From: Candidatus Zambryskiibacteriota bacterium
Lineage (GTDB): Bacteria; Patescibacteriota; Minisyncoccia; Phycocordibacterales; WO2-35-19
DNA: 57,087 nucleotides
Direction: 5' to 3'
NCBI GenBank assembly: GCA_016932555.1
Contig: JAFGCQ010000013.1
Location: 1 to 57,087 of the forward strand
The notes below the pieces were generated by a model that saw only the letters and a program-made list of their open reading frames with translations, was not told where the DNA came from and searched no databases. The translations under genes were made by a program, and so were the position numbers. This document shows positions 24,416 through 57,087 of this stretch, in pieces (positions within the stretch are counted from its first letter, which is position 1; every line of letters starts with the position of its first letter).

Positions 24416-24487
24416 GGCCCTATCGTCTAACGGTTAGGACACAGGCTTTTCAAGCCTGGAATCAGGGTTCGATTCCCTGTAGGGTCA
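24416..24487 (+). tRNA. tRNA-Glu (TTC anticodon), likely island attachment gene
   Basis: Acceptor stem GGCCCTA/TAGGGTC (one G-T pair), anticodon loop TTTTCAA (TTC), T stem CAGGG/CCCTG. The antisense strand forms the 3' end of the recombinase ORF, so an integrated element abuts or recombined into the tRNA 3' end. The tRNA stays intact. Confidence 0.92.
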
Positions 24488-25920
24488 CCGTTTGAATATT
24501 CATGGCGGTTTGCGACCAGTCTGAACGGCATCGAGAGCTTAACGTCAACGTTTTTTCCGTCTACTAACCGGTTCGAGGTCACAATTTTCAGCAAATCACG
24601 TTTTTCATCCGGAATTCCGGATTCGTAGCTTAAATAAACGCTTCCGGCCAGTTCGAGGAATTCAGCCAGCAGATCCGGTGTCGAGCTGGTATTGTTGTTT
24701 CGAAGCTCCTCAAGTTTTTCCTCAAGATTTTTCCTCTGCATCAAAATCACGGATTTACGTTCTTCGAAAATTTCCTTTCCGATAAGGCGATCGATATAAG
24801 CATCCGTGATTCGCATCAGCCGGTCCTGAAGATTATGCAGCCTCAGGTTTACGGATTTCGCTATCTCCTCCCGGTTATCTTGCCAACTTTCTTTCAGATC
24901 GACCATTTTGCTTTCCAGATATGCCTTCTCATTGTCATTCAATTGAATCGGGATCAATGTTTTTTTGATTGAGTTCTCAACAACCTCCTGCCGTAGACAG
25001 GTTTTAGGGCAATCGCGATTATGGCATCGATAATAATCATGACCCTTCTGTTTTTCTCCGATCAGGGAATGGCCACAGTGCTTGCAGGTGAGTAGTCGAC
25101 GAAAAAGGAAATCATGTTTATGGGCTCGAACATTCAAGCGGCCGTCCAGAACCTTCTGGACCCTGTCAAAGAGAGATTTACGAATGAGCGGCTGGTGGGT
25201 ACCGGAAAACGTTTCGCCTGTGCTACTCAACCGGATCAATCCGATATAGAAGGGATTATTGAGCACCACGGAAAGACCGTTGCGGCTAACTCTACCGCCA
25301 TTGCGATTTCTCAGCCCCAATTTATACATTTCATCATTCAGTGAATCGAGGTTGAATCGTCCGGTAGCGTAAAGTTCAAAAGCTTTTCTGACCAGCGGTG
25401 CCGTGATTTTGTCTAAATCCTTCGGTTTGCCTTTCCCGGTATCCAGATAACCGAGAGGAGCCGGCAAAGGATACAGACCCTGTTTCAAACGCCCGTAGAA
25501 TCCTTTGCGGGTTTCCTCCCTGAGATTGCGGATATAGTCGGCGGCCACGACCGCCTGAATGTCCGCCGAGAGCCTGCCGCCCCTGGATTGCATATCCAGG
25601 CTCTCATTGGCGAAATGTACCGAAATCCCTCGGTCTATAAGCTCGCCCAGTTCCGCCCAGTCTTTCAAATTGCGGGCGCTACGATCGATCTTGTGGACGA
25701 TAACTCCATCGGCCTGGCCCTGCTTTAGAAGCTCAAGCATGCGGTTGAATATCGGTCGGCCGCGTTTAGCCGCCGTCTCGCGTTCTTCCAGCCACTCTAT
25801 GATCTGCAGGCAGTTGCGGATAGCGTAGGCGGAAATGGCGGCACGCTGTTCCTGTAGCGATACGCCGTGCACTCCTTGTTTGACCGTGGAGACACGGATA
25901 TAACCGATATAATTACTCAT
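24427..25920 (-). CDS. Large serine recombinase (integrase)
   Basis: 497 residues. The resolvase domain has catalytic Ser11 in YIRVSTVKQ and DGVIVHKIDRSARN. The recombinase domain includes PAPLGYLDTGKGKP and NPFYIGLIR. A zinc ribbon (CKHCGHSL...YYRCHNRDCPKTC) and a coiled coil follow. Such enzymes integrate elements at short att cores. The last 19 codons are antisense tRNA-Glu (PTGNRTLIPGLKSLCPNR), so the native C-terminus probably ended near SNGD and attachment lies at this edge. Base composition differs strongly from host genes. A small gene lies directly upstream. Confidence 0.92.
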   Translation of the reverse strand: MSNYIGYIRVSTVKQGVHGVSLQEQRAAISAYAIRNCLQIIEWLEERETAAKRGRPIFNRMLELLKQGQADGVIVHKIDRSARNLKDWAELGELIDRGISVHFANESLDMQSRGGRLSADIQAVVAADYIRNLREETRKGFYGRLKQGLYPLPAPLGYLDTGKGKPKDLDKITAPLVRKAFELYATGRFNLDSLNDEMYKLGLRNRNGGRVSRNGLSVVLNNPFYIGLIRLSSTGETFSGTHQPLIRKSLFDRVQKVLDGRLNVRAHKHDFLFRRLLTCKHCGHSLIGEKQKGHDYYRCHNRDCPKTCLRQEVVENSIKKTLIPIQLNDNEKAYLESKMVDLKESWQDNREEIAKSVNLRLHNLQDRLMRITDAYIDRLIGKEIFEERKSVILMQRKNLEEKLEELRNNNTSSTPDLLAEFLELAGSVYLSYESGIPDEKRDLLKIVTSNRLVDGKNVDVKLSMPFRLVANRHEYSNGDPTGNRTLIPGLKSLCPNR

Positions 25921-52496: not shown

Positions 52497-53003
52497 CTAT
52501 TTTTTTATCTTTATCTTTTTAGGCTTTTTCTTTTCTTCTTTTTCTTTAGGGGCTACTATTTTTTTGACAGCTGCTTCAAGAGAAGTTTGCTTAGCCTCCA
52601 TGTTAATGATTTCTATGATTTTATCGAGCTTTGCATTTACTGAATCTAATTGTATCTTGAGTTCATCGATACGCTTATCTTGAACTTGGGATTTAGAAGA
52701 AAATGAATCTCTTTTATCCTTTCTGTTTCTTTGTCCATAGTCGCCTGATGAGATTCCTCTATTTTTACGAAAACAGTCATCGCAATATACGGGCTTGTCT
52801 CCTGTTGGGCGAAAAGGCACTTCACAGGTCTTGTGACAAGACGCGCAAGTCGTGCTAAACATTTGCGGACGGCCACTATCTCTCCCGCCACTGTCTCGTC
52901 TATTACCACCACCAAAATTTGAACGTCTACCTCTTCTATCAAAATTACCATCGCCTCGGCCACCACCTCTACCAAAAGCGCCAAGCCTTTTATATTCAGG
53001 CAT
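52497..53003 (-). CDS. CxxC-x17-CxxC zinc-ribbon protein with RGG-rich N-terminus
   Basis: 168 residues. The N-terminal 45 residues are Gly/Arg/Asp-rich (RGGGRGDGNFDRRGRR), typical of RNA binding. Then TTCASCHKTCEVPFRP...VYCDDCF is the CxxC-x17-CxxC motif known from Parcubacteria and relatives. A helix and a Lys-rich tail (KEEKKKPKKIKIKK) end it. It is likely a nucleic-acid-binding protein. It lies just outside the first 90-bp repeat. Confidence 0.8.
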   Translation of the reverse strand: MPEYKRLGAFGRGGGRGDGNFDRRGRRSNFGGGNRRDSGGRDSGRPQMFSTTCASCHKTCEVPFRPTGDKPVYCDDCFRKNRGISSGDYGQRNRKDKRDSFSSKSQVQDKRIDELKIQLDSVNAKLDKIIEIINMEAKQTSLEAAVKKIVAPKEKEEKKKPKKIKIKK

Positions 53004-53074: not shown

Positions 53075-53164
53075 GCTGGCCGTTTCGAGTTAGAACCGTG
53101 TGATTCATTACCCAGTAATGCTATTTTAGCACTTTTTTAAAATCAAAAACGACGGGTCTCGAGT
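53075..53164. repeat. 90-bp repeat, copy 1
   Basis: It begins GCTGGCCG and ends TCTCGAGT, with short terminal direct repeats of the CGTCTCGAGT type. Inside are a CATTAC/GTAATG hairpin and a TGCTA/TAGCA hairpin. It is the same length and orientation as 53645-53734 and 57002-57087, and lies between the zinc-ribbon gene and the GIY-YIG gene. Confidence 0.85.
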
Positions 53165-53194
53165 GGCGCATAAGTTATCCAACTTTACTCATAA

Positions 53195-53467
53195 TTACAG
53201 TTTCTTTATTAACTCTTTATCACCACTAATTAAAGCTTCTTTTTTGGCTCTTGTCCAACCTTTGAGCTGTTTTTCTCTCCTCATTGATTCCAGTCTTGAA
53301 TCAAATTTTTCTTGATAGACGAGTTCAAAATCTTTATGTTCTTTGCTAAATTTGGAAGCTTTTGTGTTTTTACTCCTATGCTCTTTGAGTCTCTTTTCTA
53401 AATTATTTGTCTGACCAATATAGAGACTGTTGTCGGAGAAACGGAGGATGTATAGAAAATAATTCAT
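53195..53467 (-). CDS. GIY-YIG nuclease-domain protein
   Basis: 90 residues, the minimal GIY-YIG fold: FLYILRFSDNSLYIGQTNNLEKRLKEH, then FELVYQEKFDSRLESMRREKQLKGW. The family is often annotated as UPF0213/YhbQ-type and may act in DNA repair or as a stand-alone homing-like nuclease. It lies alone between repeat copies 1 and 2, on the strand of the other accessory genes. It is a possible cargo gene. Confidence 0.88.
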   Translation of the reverse strand: MNYFLYILRFSDNSLYIGQTNNLEKRLKEHRSKNTKASKFSKEHKDFELVYQEKFDSRLESMRREKQLKGWTRAKKEALISGDKELIKKL

Positions 53468-53644
53468 GTTTTTTCGAACTCCCTTCGATTCGGCATTTTC
53501 AATGCCTCACTCAGGGCCTTCGACGTGGATTTTTGTGACATAACTTGTGAGTAGATTTGGTTTGTGGCTATAGCCCTGAGCGAGCGTAGCGAGTCGAAGG
53601 GCTATAGCTGTGAGCGGAGCGAGTGCAACGAGCGAAGTCGAACG
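53468..53644. other. Repeat-rich gap before 90-bp copy 2
   Basis: It holds CAGGGCCTTCGAC and a REP-like hairpin (CTATAGCCCT at 53568-53577 with AGGGCTATAG at 53598-53607, loop GAGCGAGCGTAGCGAGTCGA). GAGCGAAGTCGAACGGC, which also occurs almost unchanged before tRNA-Glu (24402-24418), follows. No gene seen. Confidence 0.5.
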
Positions 53645-53734
53645 GCTGGCCGTCTCGAGATAGAACCGCGTGGTTCATTACCCCGCAATGCTATTTTAAC
53701 AGATTTTTTAAATTAAAAACGACGCGTGTCGAGT
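53645..53734. repeat. 90-bp repeat, copy 2
   Basis: Same length and orientation as copy 1. It carries a GAACC/GGTTC hairpin (in GAACCGCGTGGTTC) and CATTAC followed by GCAATG. It separates the GIY-YIG gene from the membrane protein/restriction-modification pair. Confidence 0.85.
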
Positions 53735-53741
53735 AGCTTAT

Positions 53742-54503
53742 TTACCTTGTTTCATAAAAATCGTTAGCCTTCCCATTAAAATCATAATAATATAAGCTAA
53801 AACCAGGCGCTATACTTTTGATTTTTTTATTTTCGATTTCTAACCCGATAACAATCGAACCCATGCTATATGTTTTAAACTTTCTTTCAACAGAATCAGA
53901 AGATAACAATAATTCATAATTTATTATGCTAACCCCGTCATTCAAAAATTGATTCAATACTACTGAATCAAGATCATTTTCTAAATTTCTCTGTAAAAAC
54001 TTTGAAGGAAATATTGCCTTTTGGACTGGAATTTTTGTTAATATATCAGGACCAAAAACAACCCTAATTGCCTCGACATAAATAGGAATTTCCCCATAGT
54101 TTTTAAAAGTTGCAGTTTTATTTTCAAAATCATATTCAAACTCTAATTGTTGAGTTTTTAAATTTTGCTCTAATAGCTTCTCATTTATTTTATTTTGTTG
54201 GTAAGAAAAGTATATAACACCAAAAAATGACAATATTGATATTGAGGCAAGTATAATACTAGTAATTCTTTGATTTCGGGATGTCTTTCTGTCGTCAGTT
54301 TTTGCTTCCTCATGTTCCAATGCTTCAGATTCTTTTTGCCCTAAATCAGCTTCGAGTTCTTCTTTTAGCCATTTTTCTTCCTTATTCCGGATACTTGATG
54401 AGGCTAACCCTCGTACAGCCATTTCATCTTGCTTTTTCTCTAAATCTCTCTCGTACTTCTTAGTCCGCCAATTTTTATATATTTCAAATTGTTTTTTATT
54501 CAT
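53742..54503 (-). CDS. Membrane protein of unknown function coupled to the RM gene
   Basis: 253 residues from ATG 54503 (a GTG at 54512 is the alternative). A long charged helix with Lys/Glu runs, one membrane helix (about 80-100), then an extracytoplasmic or cytoplasmic beta-rich domain (ATFKNYGEIPIYVEAIRVVFG). It starts within a few bases of the end of the upstream methyltransferase, so translation is probably coupled. It ends eight bases from repeat copy 2. Family not recognised. A membrane partner is unusual beside an RM enzyme. Confidence 0.6.
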   Translation of the reverse strand: MNKKQFEIYKNWRTKKYERDLEKKQDEMAVRGLASSSIRNKEEKWLKEELEADLGQKESEALEHEEAKTDDRKTSRNQRITSIILASISILSFFGVIYFSYQQNKINEKLLEQNLKTQQLEFEYDFENKTATFKNYGEIPIYVEAIRVVFGPDILTKIPVQKAIFPSKFLQRNLENDLDSVVLNQFLNDGVSIINYELLLSSDSVERKFKTYSMGSIVIGLEIENKKIKSIAPGFSLYYYDFNGKANDFYETR

Positions 54504-54515
54504 GTTTTCCACTAA

Positions 54516-56972
54516 TTATTTCAACAACTCATATTTAAATAATTTTGGCTGAATAACAGTTTCGTAATATTTTGCCAATTTTGTTTTCAAGCTGTTAATA
54601 GCAGTATTGAGCTCCGTATAGACATAAACCCATTCGTCGTTGTCATTTTTATAACGAGCATTAAGTTCGTCATCGATTTGATATGTACCGTATGTATACT
54701 TAGGATTATAATCTTCAGTGCTTTTTGCTTTTTTCAAAACATCGCCAAAGATTTCCAGAAGATCCTTCTCGTCTTTCGTAATCTTATATTCCTTTAATTT
54801 CTTGCTTGCCAACGTTCCCTTATCAAAACAAAGTTCGTTTTTATAAAATCTTTTATCACTTCCACTAAAACTGCGGCAATGATTGCGTTGACTTAAGCAA
54901 GCAAATATAAAACATGATTTTAAGAAATTTTTATCTTTTAAGTATTTATCTCCTCCGTCTGCGGTTGTAAAATATATATCCCGCTCATACCAATTTTTCT
55001 GAGGGTAAAGTTTAGCAGCAAATAACGGCAATTTATCAACAAAATTATCTGAACGAAGATAAAAACCTTGAGATTTTTCCAGTCCATTATAAGTAATGGT
55101 AGTTGTTAGTGAATAACTAATGGGGTCTAAGTTATAGCTTGTGATTCGTAAGTGACCAACAATATTTTCATTATAAACTGCTTTGCGTTTTACTTTTTTA
55201 GCTGATTCTTTTCCAGATAAATCACAAACTACTTCTGTTTCAATATCATTATCAAAGACTCGTGTATCTTTATAATTCTGTTGCATAGGAGAATGCACCT
55301 TCCTGACCTCAATTTCTTTAATTAAGGCTATTTCATCATCTTCTTGTTCAGGAGTTTTTTTGCTATCAATATCAAATGCTTTGAGTGTGAGTTTTTCAAG
55401 ATTTTCAGTCAGATTTTTCCACAAGATACAACTGACAGCACTAGGCCCCGCATGAAAATATTGGCGATTAAAAAGAAAGCCGTCGATAAATTTTTTTTCA
55501 CCAAGACCAAGCGATTTCCAATATTTTATTGGGCTAAACAACACAAGACAATCATCTTGCTTTTTTAAATAATATTGCCAACCTGACCAAATAAACAGGT
55601 TTGCTAATTCACGATGATTTGCTTCATTAGTCCCGGCTTTTTTAAATTCTTCATAGATAAAAGATTTTGATCCATTTCGATTCTTAATTAAGGCAGCTTC
55701 GTCTCGATAAGGCGGATTTTCATACAAAATAATGTTTGTTTTTTTATCCCCGACATAATTTAGGAGTTTAGAAATACTATTGTGATATTCCTTTGTCATT
55801 TTAGACGACTTTTGCCCCCCTACAAATTGTGAGCTCAGCGCATCACCACCTTCAACCAAAGCCTTCCTAGTATTTACTTCCTGATATGGGGGGATTATTA
55901 ATTTCACCTTGTCCCCAATACGCTCGTTTAATACCACCCATTCTTTAAGTTCATAAGTATTGACAATAGCATGAGATAATTCATTATCGGAAAGGTACTC
56001 TCTTATTTTGATGGATGTCTCGTATTTTTTTAATTCTCCGAGTGTAATCTCGTTTATTTTTCTTTTATTTCTTACCAAAATTAAATCTATTCCATCTCCA
56101 ACACTAGATAAATAATTCTTTTTAAAATTGTTATCGACATATTTTATCAGTTCCCCAATAGCAATATCATCTACCGGTTTATCGGTTAGAAATTCCTCCA
56201 AGTTGCCCGTACCTGCGCAACGATCAAGAATAATATAATCATGTTCTTTGAGTATCTGTTTTATAGCCTTTCTGACTAATTCTGTAGCCTTGAGACAATA
56301 AGCGGGGGGCGTGTAAAAGGCACCTAATTCTTTCTTGTGCTGCTTATCATTAAGCAAGTCCATGATGTATTTGAAATCTTTTTCATCTCCTTTCCATGGA
56401 TATATATAATCTGCGAAGCATTTAGGCGAACGCAATTCTTTAAAAAGCTTAATCTTACTTGCTGTTGGATTTTCCTCATAAAATCTATTCGCCCAACCTA
56501 CTACATCAAACAAGTCAATGTGAACTTTGGTAAACTTTTTAGTTTCTAAAATCTCTGTAATTCGTCGCAAACCTACTAAGTTACTATAATCAATTTTTTC
56601 TGGTTCAATCTTAGTTGTAAAATCTAGATTATCTTTGCTTGCCGCACCAGCATGAGGTATCTCAATTTGAGAGAGAAAATCCCTAGAATCAAATAGGTAT
56701 GCTTTTTCTTCATTAAGAGCAACTAATAAGATTTGGGCTGGGATAGGATTACCTTTTATTCTTCGATGACTTAAATATTTTATCGCTTGAGATAATACCT
56801 TGTTGGTATCGGAAATAGTTAATTTAAACTCAAACAGAGTACCCTTATAAACTCCATCTGTATTATAAGTAAGTTCAATATCAGCACTAATAGCGAGTCG
56901 TTCAAAAAACTCAATCTGACCTTCACGTTCAGATAAAAAGTATTTTTTTGATTTGGTTATATTTCCAGCCAT
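54516..56972 (-). CDS. Type IIG-like restriction-modification enzyme (N6-adenine methyltransferase)
   Basis: 818 residues. The N-terminal region has a PD-(D/E)xK-like nuclease pattern: D39 in YNTDG, then E48-F-K50 in LFEFKL. The methyltransferase core follows: LGAFYTPPAYC (217-), motif I ILDRCAGTGN (248-257), NPPY at 419-422, typical of N6-adenine enzymes. The C-terminal half is a probable target-recognition region. Nuclease and methyltransferase on one chain suggests a type IIG/L enzyme, though the nuclease call rests on a short motif. GAGGTG lies just before the ATG. Repeat copies 2 and 3 flank it with the membrane-protein gene. Confidence 0.75.
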   Translation of the reverse strand: MAGNITKSKKYFLSEREGQIEFFERLAISADIELTYNTDGVYKGTLFEFKLTISDTNKVLSQAIKYLSHRRIKGNPIPAQILLVALNEEKAYLFDSRDFLSQIEIPHAGAASKDNLDFTTKIEPEKIDYSNLVGLRRITEILETKKFTKVHIDLFDVVGWANRFYEENPTASKIKLFKELRSPKCFADYIYPWKGDEKDFKYIMDLLNDKQHKKELGAFYTPPAYCLKATELVRKAIKQILKEHDYIILDRCAGTGNLEEFLTDKPVDDIAIGELIKYVDNNFKKNYLSSVGDGIDLILVRNKRKINEITLGELKKYETSIKIREYLSDNELSHAIVNTYELKEWVVLNERIGDKVKLIIPPYQEVNTRKALVEGGDALSSQFVGGQKSSKMTKEYHNSISKLLNYVGDKKTNIILYENPPYRDEAALIKNRNGSKSFIYEEFKKAGTNEANHRELANLFIWSGWQYYLKKQDDCLVLFSPIKYWKSLGLGEKKFIDGFLFNRQYFHAGPSAVSCILWKNLTENLEKLTLKAFDIDSKKTPEQEDDEIALIKEIEVRKVHSPMQQNYKDTRVFDNDIETEVVCDLSGKESAKKVKRKAVYNENIVGHLRITSYNLDPISYSLTTTITYNGLEKSQGFYLRSDNFVDKLPLFAAKLYPQKNWYERDIYFTTADGGDKYLKDKNFLKSCFIFACLSQRNHCRSFSGSDKRFYKNELCFDKGTLASKKLKEYKITKDEKDLLEIFGDVLKKAKSTEDYNPKYTYGTYQIDDELNARYKNDNDEWVYVYTELNTAINSLKTKLAKYYETVIQPKLFKYELLK

Positions 56973-57001
56973 TTAAGGCACCTCGAGCAGAGCTCAAAGT
57001 G

Positions 57002-57087
57002 GCTGGCCGTCTCGAGTTAGAACCGTGCGGTTCATTACCTCACAATGCTATTTTAACAGATTTTTCGGATTAAAAACGACGCGTCTC
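57002..57087. repeat. 90-bp repeat, copy 3 (cut by the window end)
   Basis: It matches copies 1 and 2 from GCTGGCCG through AAAAACGACGCGTCTC. It carries GAACCG/CGGTTC, a different stem sequence from copy 2 that still pairs. It lies upstream of the RM gene. Confidence 0.85.

Follow-up and report, generated by a model that had tools for sequence, protein, structure and literature searches.

The stretch of DNA studied here (the window, 57,087 nucleotides) is the whole of contig C23 of a Candidatus Zambryskiibacteriota genome, the assembly of which amounts to 608 kb in 33 contigs. Near its right end there are three copies of a 90-nt unit, standing in register on the same strand, copies 1 and 3 being 84% and 90% identical to the middle one. 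Their E-values in the source genome (4.7e-42, 2.7e-24 and 1.1e-19) exclude chance, and the three repeats of equal length and orientation, which had been recognized in an original prediction made from the letters alone, were confirmed at their positions. The gene content between the copies was also as described there: a GIY-YIG gene, then a pair consisting of a membrane protein gene and a restriction-modification (RM)-like gene, all on the minus strand (Table 1). A fourth copy was not found in the 33 contigs of the source genome, and since copy 3 is cut by the right end of the contig, the array extends outside the assembly. The unit, the cassettes which it appears to close and the enzyme that may act on it are the subject of this article.

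Table 1. Features of the unit array in the window; the roles given are predicted from comparison of sequences.
Feature	Position	Strand	Remarks
Treble-clef zinc-finger protein gene beyond the last unit	52497..53003	-	not followed by a unit; cassette or island content of older date
Unit copy 1	53075..53164	-	putative attR-type site closing the GIY-YIG cassette; crossover core CAGC (GCTG on the plus strand, 53075-53078)
GIY-YIG cassette gene, 90 aa	53195..53467	-	PF01541, E = 1.2e-18; stop codon ~30 nt before unit copy 1
Putative left end of the GIY-YIG cassette	53610..53644	-	CGTTCGACTTCGCTCGTTGCACTCGCTCCGCTCAC; also follows the other tRNA-Gln of the source genome (contig C16)
Unit copy 2	53645..53734	-	putative attR-type site closing the membrane-protein/RM-like cassette; core 53645-53648
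Predicted membrane protein, 256 aa, cassette gene	53742..54512	-	stop codon 9 nt before unit copy 2
818-aa cassette gene	54516..56972	-	ENPPY motif as in DNA methylases; restriction-modification-like by motif alone
Putative right arm, left end of the RM/membrane cassette	56977..57001	-	CACTTTGAGCTCTGCTCGAGGTGCC; similar to what follows tRNA-Gln ends (in L134, for example, GTTTGAGCTAGGTTCGCGCGCTCGAG)
Unit copy 3	57002..57087	-	putative attR-type site, cut at the contig end; closes an unassembled cassette or element; core 57002-57005

In order to follow the unit beyond the window, a sequence model made from 27 copies was run over 397 genomes of the window's order, mostly draft assemblies; all the evidence presented here is comparative. 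It was clearly demonstrated that the unit forms a family: it is present in 128 of the 397 genomes, with up to six copies per genome, often as arrays, many of them same-strand series spaced by 0.5-2.3 kb. In a search over a wider range of organisms, a 22-base pattern from one unit end matched 18 DNA stretches in 85,000 species genomes, and all of those with a named group belong to Patescibacteria. The pattern is absent from IMG/VR; in IMG/VR and in the plasmid and phage collections there was either no unit or no close recombinase. The alignment of 90 copies revealed two conserved boxes on the gene strand, a 5'-terminal GCWCGAGACGCGTCG and a 3'-terminal GGTTCTAGCTCGAGACGGCCAGC, which covary as direct repeats in several lineages. 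The proposed terminal direct repeat is real: it consists of GTCTCGAG near one end and GACGCGTCTCGAG at the other, and is conserved across genomes. The integron core GTTRRRY is missing, as had been noticed, the conserved ends being GCWCGAGACG and CTCGAGACGGCCAGC. The proposed internal hairpins did not hold up, since RNAalifold gave no consensus structure for the units, the single candidate hairpin paired in 62.2% versus 60.7% in shuffles (85/500), covariation on the folded aligned copies did not exceed that of the shuffles, and the Rfam search gave no match. The idea of a dif or terminus site was given up in view of the several separated copies in many genomes.

Read on the gene strand (the minus strand in the window), the unit is the end of the preceding cassette. 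A co-oriented gene stops 3-80 nt before the unit in 21/21 array intervals, and these intervals between consecutive units measure 425-3269 bp, with one to four genes each. The cassette genes are mostly without family; the rest include a DUF4268 nuclease (PADLOC candidate PDC-S11), AbiTii, HNH and HEPN proteins.

The arrays are tied in position to tRNAs. Of the tRNA genes at most 2 kb away from a unit, 22 stand upstream in the same orientation, three upstream in the opposite one and none downstream, the co-oriented ones being tRNA-Gln, -Ser or -Glu. In 19 of these 22 pairs the last four bases of the unit are the last acceptor bases of the tRNA and the first C of CCA, compared with a mean of 9.95 after shuffling, and none of 20,000 shuffles was as high. 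The core varies together with the tRNA (CAGC for Gln, CCGC for Ser, TCAC for Glu), and one odd tRNA-Gln which ends in TAAC is accompanied by units that mostly end in TAAC too. At the array loci a right arm, for instance AACTTGAGCTAGCTCAA, often comes after the tRNA end. A motif obtained from these tRNA-adjacent arms was recognized after 14 of the 89 units versus 0-2 of 89 at control offsets. Dyad symmetry is visible in individual sites (e.g. L046, L078) and some arms form inverted repeats; a general test for symmetry of the arms, or complementarity of the unit arm to the 30 nt after it, did not reach significance. Just 5' of the unit, iterons TGTNACTTTTGTNACTTTTT (GTNAC) were observed at eight loci (L017, L020, L022, L025, L072, L078, L082, L083), often with an inverted AAAGTTACA..TGTAACTTT, maximum once per genome and, in 6/7 multi-unit arrays, before the head unit. 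The idea that they mark an integron-like attI was set aside, since the tRNA end proved to be the acceptor; they may bind a regulator or a factor of replication or recombination.

The comparison of syntenic loci, which had been suggested in order to find clean gain or loss at the repeat edge, revealed it in two pairs of genomes, with the short 4-nt core visible at both. In G262 AATGCACAAAACAAAC comes directly after the CAGC end of tRNA-Gln. In G113, a genome of the same genus, this tRNA likewise ends in CAGC and continues with the right arm CAACTTGAGCTAGCTCAA, then come 17.5 kb of other genes and GCTCAAGGACGCCAGC, where the unit ends with GCCAGC, and directly after it AATGTACAAAACAAAC. In the other pair a 17.3-kb element, 98.98% identical in the two genomes, stands directly after the CCGC of tRNA-Ser in G374 and directly after the CCGC of a unit in G230. 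This element carries a serine recombinase (L261 in G230, L262 in G374) and the two genomes represent two species of one genus, thus the 99% identity suggests a recent transfer. Furthermore, two families of the order share a 2.67-kb block (92% identity), the end of which coincides with a unit edge in G113. Inside the island of G113 a stray 3' half of tRNA-Gln was also noticed ~60 nt after a unit (714392-714414, L142), a trace of an older insertion or duplication.

For the window itself, the tRNA would be on another contig. Contig C2 of the source genome carries a tRNA-Gln ending in CAGC, after which the right arm CAACTCGTGCGTCGCTCGAGACGCGTC follows and the contig ends, while in G002 the homologues of C2 (the pyrG side) and of the left flank of the window (dsbA, cupin) flank a single tRNA-Gln in the required orientation. 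On the basis of this contig end and of the arrangement in G002, the window array is most likely located on the 3' side of the C2 tRNA-Gln, the stretch between copy 3 and the tRNA being unassembled. Within the array the right arm before the RM/membrane cassette was assigned by eye, because it is below the threshold of the position weight matrix. The 818-aa and 256-aa proteins had no Pfam, NCBIfam or PADLOC match, and no homologue of the zinc-finger gene was found in seven genus mates. The suggestion that GIY-YIG might be cargo or actor could be upheld in its first half: it looks like recurrent cargo at tRNA-Gln sites (also in G002 and G003), not like an actor. Small GIY-YIG genes stand at tRNA-Gln loci of genus mates (G003, L173:748-984; G002, L170:3671-3910) and on contig C16 of the source genome (L169:3816-4043), and they recur also in genomes without a detectable unit; the sequence after tRNA-Gln in G003 is found after a unit in L016 as well.

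A candidate enzyme was recognized among the large serine recombinases. One clade of these, separated from other serine recombinases with 100/100 support, occurs in 110 of the 397 genomes, 59 of which also have units (odds ratio 3.66, p = 4e-8). Where recombinase and unit lie on the same contig not more than 35 kb apart (n=36), the recombinase gene is on the strand opposite to the unit in 36/36 pairs and on its 5' side in 32/36, usually at a distance of 7-15 kb. The member in G113 (L142:8765-10177) contains PF00239 (Resolvase) and PF07508 (Recombinase), both above cut-off, and its nearest solved relatives are SPbeta YokA (PDB 9dxh, 9dxd) and the A118 and TP901-1 integrases (E = 5e-15). Tyrosine recombinases need an overlap region of 6-8 bp; with four bases in common, the core is more in keeping with a serine recombinase. 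This clade is most likely the catalyst acting on the units, an assignment we infer from linkage, orientation and co-occurrence. As for the earlier remark that no integrase is near, it is valid for the assembled sequence of the window; the array continues past the contig end.

Taken together, the unit is very probably the attR-type end of a mobile cassette, the site-specific insertion of which took place at a tRNA 3' end, in the window that of the tRNA-Gln next to pyrG. The original prediction that the repeats are recombination sites of a cassette system is supported by the gene-plus-3'-site geometry, by the arrays in many genomes, by the clean junctions and by the repeat end covarying with the tRNA. 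In our best reading this is a tRNA-targeting system that resembles SCC, with a serine recombinase and with arrays like those of integrons. The attP of the circular form would have a short core (CCAG) between the 3' arm of the unit (TAGCTCGAGACGG) and the inverted right arm (AANTTGAGCTAG), so that at the circular junction TAGCTCGAGACGGCCAGC would be followed by the right arm of the same cassette. The circular cassette or element might recombine with the tRNA 3' end through the approximately four bases which they have in common; the tRNA would stay intact, with the right arm after it and the unit at the far, outer end. Since the unit ends in the same four bases as the tRNA, each new insertion at the tRNA could move the previous cassettes farther out, so that arrays of units of 0.4-3.3 kb would build up, all of them pointing away from the tRNA; the three-copy array of the window may have formed by such successive insertions. 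The least certain step is that cassettes without recombinase would be moved in trans. Whether the system amounts to a serine-recombinase counterpart of the integron, in which throughout the order the 3' ends of tRNAs capture in trans small cassettes that have only two att halves and no recombinase, and lineages retarget the tRNA through four core bases, is in our judgement evenly balanced.

Other explanations have to be weighed against this one. The arrays could be the eroded remains of large integrated elements which kept their attR ends, their small size being due to deletion in a shrinking genome. Intact elements of ~17-19 kb with the recombinase do exist at the same sites (G113, G034), and many units have no right arm after them, yet several small cassettes keep both ends (L073 10349-10952, L076 8417-9474, L017 2752-4503, L075 1827-4259), and a homologous two-gene cassette together with its unit (67% nt) stands behind a tRNA-Gln-like 3' end in L019 and behind the unit of another element in L080; erosion is possible but rather unlikely. 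It is more doubtful still that a tyrosine recombinase uses the units as its att sites, be it the Xer-like enzyme of the genome or an integrase carried by an element, the usual case in tRNA-targeting islands. Although tRNA 3' ends are classic targets of tyrosine integrases, nearly every genome has a Xer-type enzyme and some of the arms form inverted repeats, the shared core of ~4 nt is shorter than the overlap such enzymes require, the PF00589 copy number does not differ between genomes with and without units, and the physically linked enzyme is the serine-recombinase clade. In the single-contig genome G113 the units and the serine recombinase are present with no PF00589 match.

That the unit, lying between co-oriented genes, acts in cis as an RNA, a terminator or a promoter would agree with its location close after stop codons and with the T-rich stretch in some copies; nevertheless the negative Rfam, folding and covariation analyses speak against it, and this reading would leave the tRNA anchor, the 4-nt covariation and the junctions unexplained, which makes it highly improbable. 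Even less credible is an integron with unusual attC sites: the gene-then-site layout of the array is the same, but there is no folded site, the target is a tRNA end and not attI, and the two tyrosine recombinases of the source genome, neither of which is on the contig of the window, score 142.6 and 116.8 bits versus the TIGR02249 cut-off of 265 and are nearest to XerC/D models.

Several observations weigh against the att-site interpretation and its serine recombinase. Three of the 22 unit/tRNA pairs mismatch (L122, L128, L129), 75 of the 89 units have no recognisable right arm after them, and the right arms look different at some recombinase-tRNA loci (L229, L223). Units occur without the recombinase clade in 69 genomes and the clade without a detected unit in 51, partly owing to sensitivity and draft assemblies, and the clade was not found in the assembled contigs of the source genome. 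A similar tRNA-Gln stands in another orientation in the genus mates G006 and G007. Because serine-recombinase att sites usually comprise ~40-50 bp, the greater part of the 90-nt unit, including its first 60 nt, is left without a role in this interpretation. It should be added that one and the same data set served for building the profiles and for applying them.

Compared with known systems, the present one resembles SCC/ECC in mechanism, tycheposons and additive islands in position and integrons in layout, and it lacks a defining trait of each. With SCC/ECC elements (CcrAB or CcrC, 3' end of rlmH; PMC6222049) it shares a large serine recombinase (here the linked candidate), insertion at the 3' end of a conserved gene which remains intact, a short common core, multiple attR sites per island and variable accessory cargo; the dyad symmetry of their attR and circular site has its parallel here in individual sites. 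In contrast to them, the target is the 3' end of tRNA-Gln, -Ser or -Glu instead of rlmH, the hosts are Patescibacteria, a conserved 90-nt site closes arrays of 1-4-gene cassettes of 0.4-3.3 kb, and the recombinase is far below the Ccr cut-offs (CcrB 124.6, CcrC 68.5 and CcrA 47.5 bits versus 900, 900 and 700, respectively). Tycheposons and additive flexible genomic islands (PMC10872708) are likewise anchored at tRNAs and grow by repeated insertion at one site, with variable, mostly unknown cargo and att-site repeats marking the insertions; however, those described use a tyrosine recombinase (XerD) or show 20-bp tRNA-end repeats (PMC10872708), whereas here 4 nt are shared, the linked enzyme is a serine recombinase, and the G113 element is without a tyrosine recombinase. 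As in integron cassettes, an open reading frame is followed by a recombination site, co-oriented and stacked behind a fixed acceptor, with defence-like and unknown cargo, but IntI, attI, the GTTRRRY core and a folded attC are all missing. The SPbeta YokA, A118 and TP901-1 integrases belong to the same recombinase superfamily as distant relatives, and they serve phage elements, not cassette arrays.

In the literature searched, which left most subscription journals outside its coverage, neither an integron-like system in Patescibacteria nor a paper on this one was found, and the system appears to be undescribed. Gene acquisition by the tiny, host-dependent Patescibacteria is poorly understood; a defined att site, an acceptor and a candidate enzyme would make gene capture in them directly testable, and the unit could be used as a probe for their mobile gene pool, which contains nuclease and AbiTii-like genes besides a majority of unknown ones. 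The putative enzyme would also add a recombinase family with a target set by a few bases of the tRNA end, which could serve as a site-specific integration tool.

Some additional features were noticed. The window also encodes a second large serine recombinase (497 aa), which belongs to another group, at 24427-25920 on the minus strand; its 3' end overlaps a tRNA-Glu (24416-24489, plus strand) in antisense; the same kind of overlap was seen in other genomes with tRNA-Gln, -Glu, -Ala, -Asn, -Thr and -Ser. An IS200-like transposase gene adjoins a diverged, split unit in L077:12409-13050. Finally, a reverse transcriptase and an avd-like four-helix protein, resembling a diversity-generating retroelement, are situated ~370 nt from a unit in L017:990-2381.

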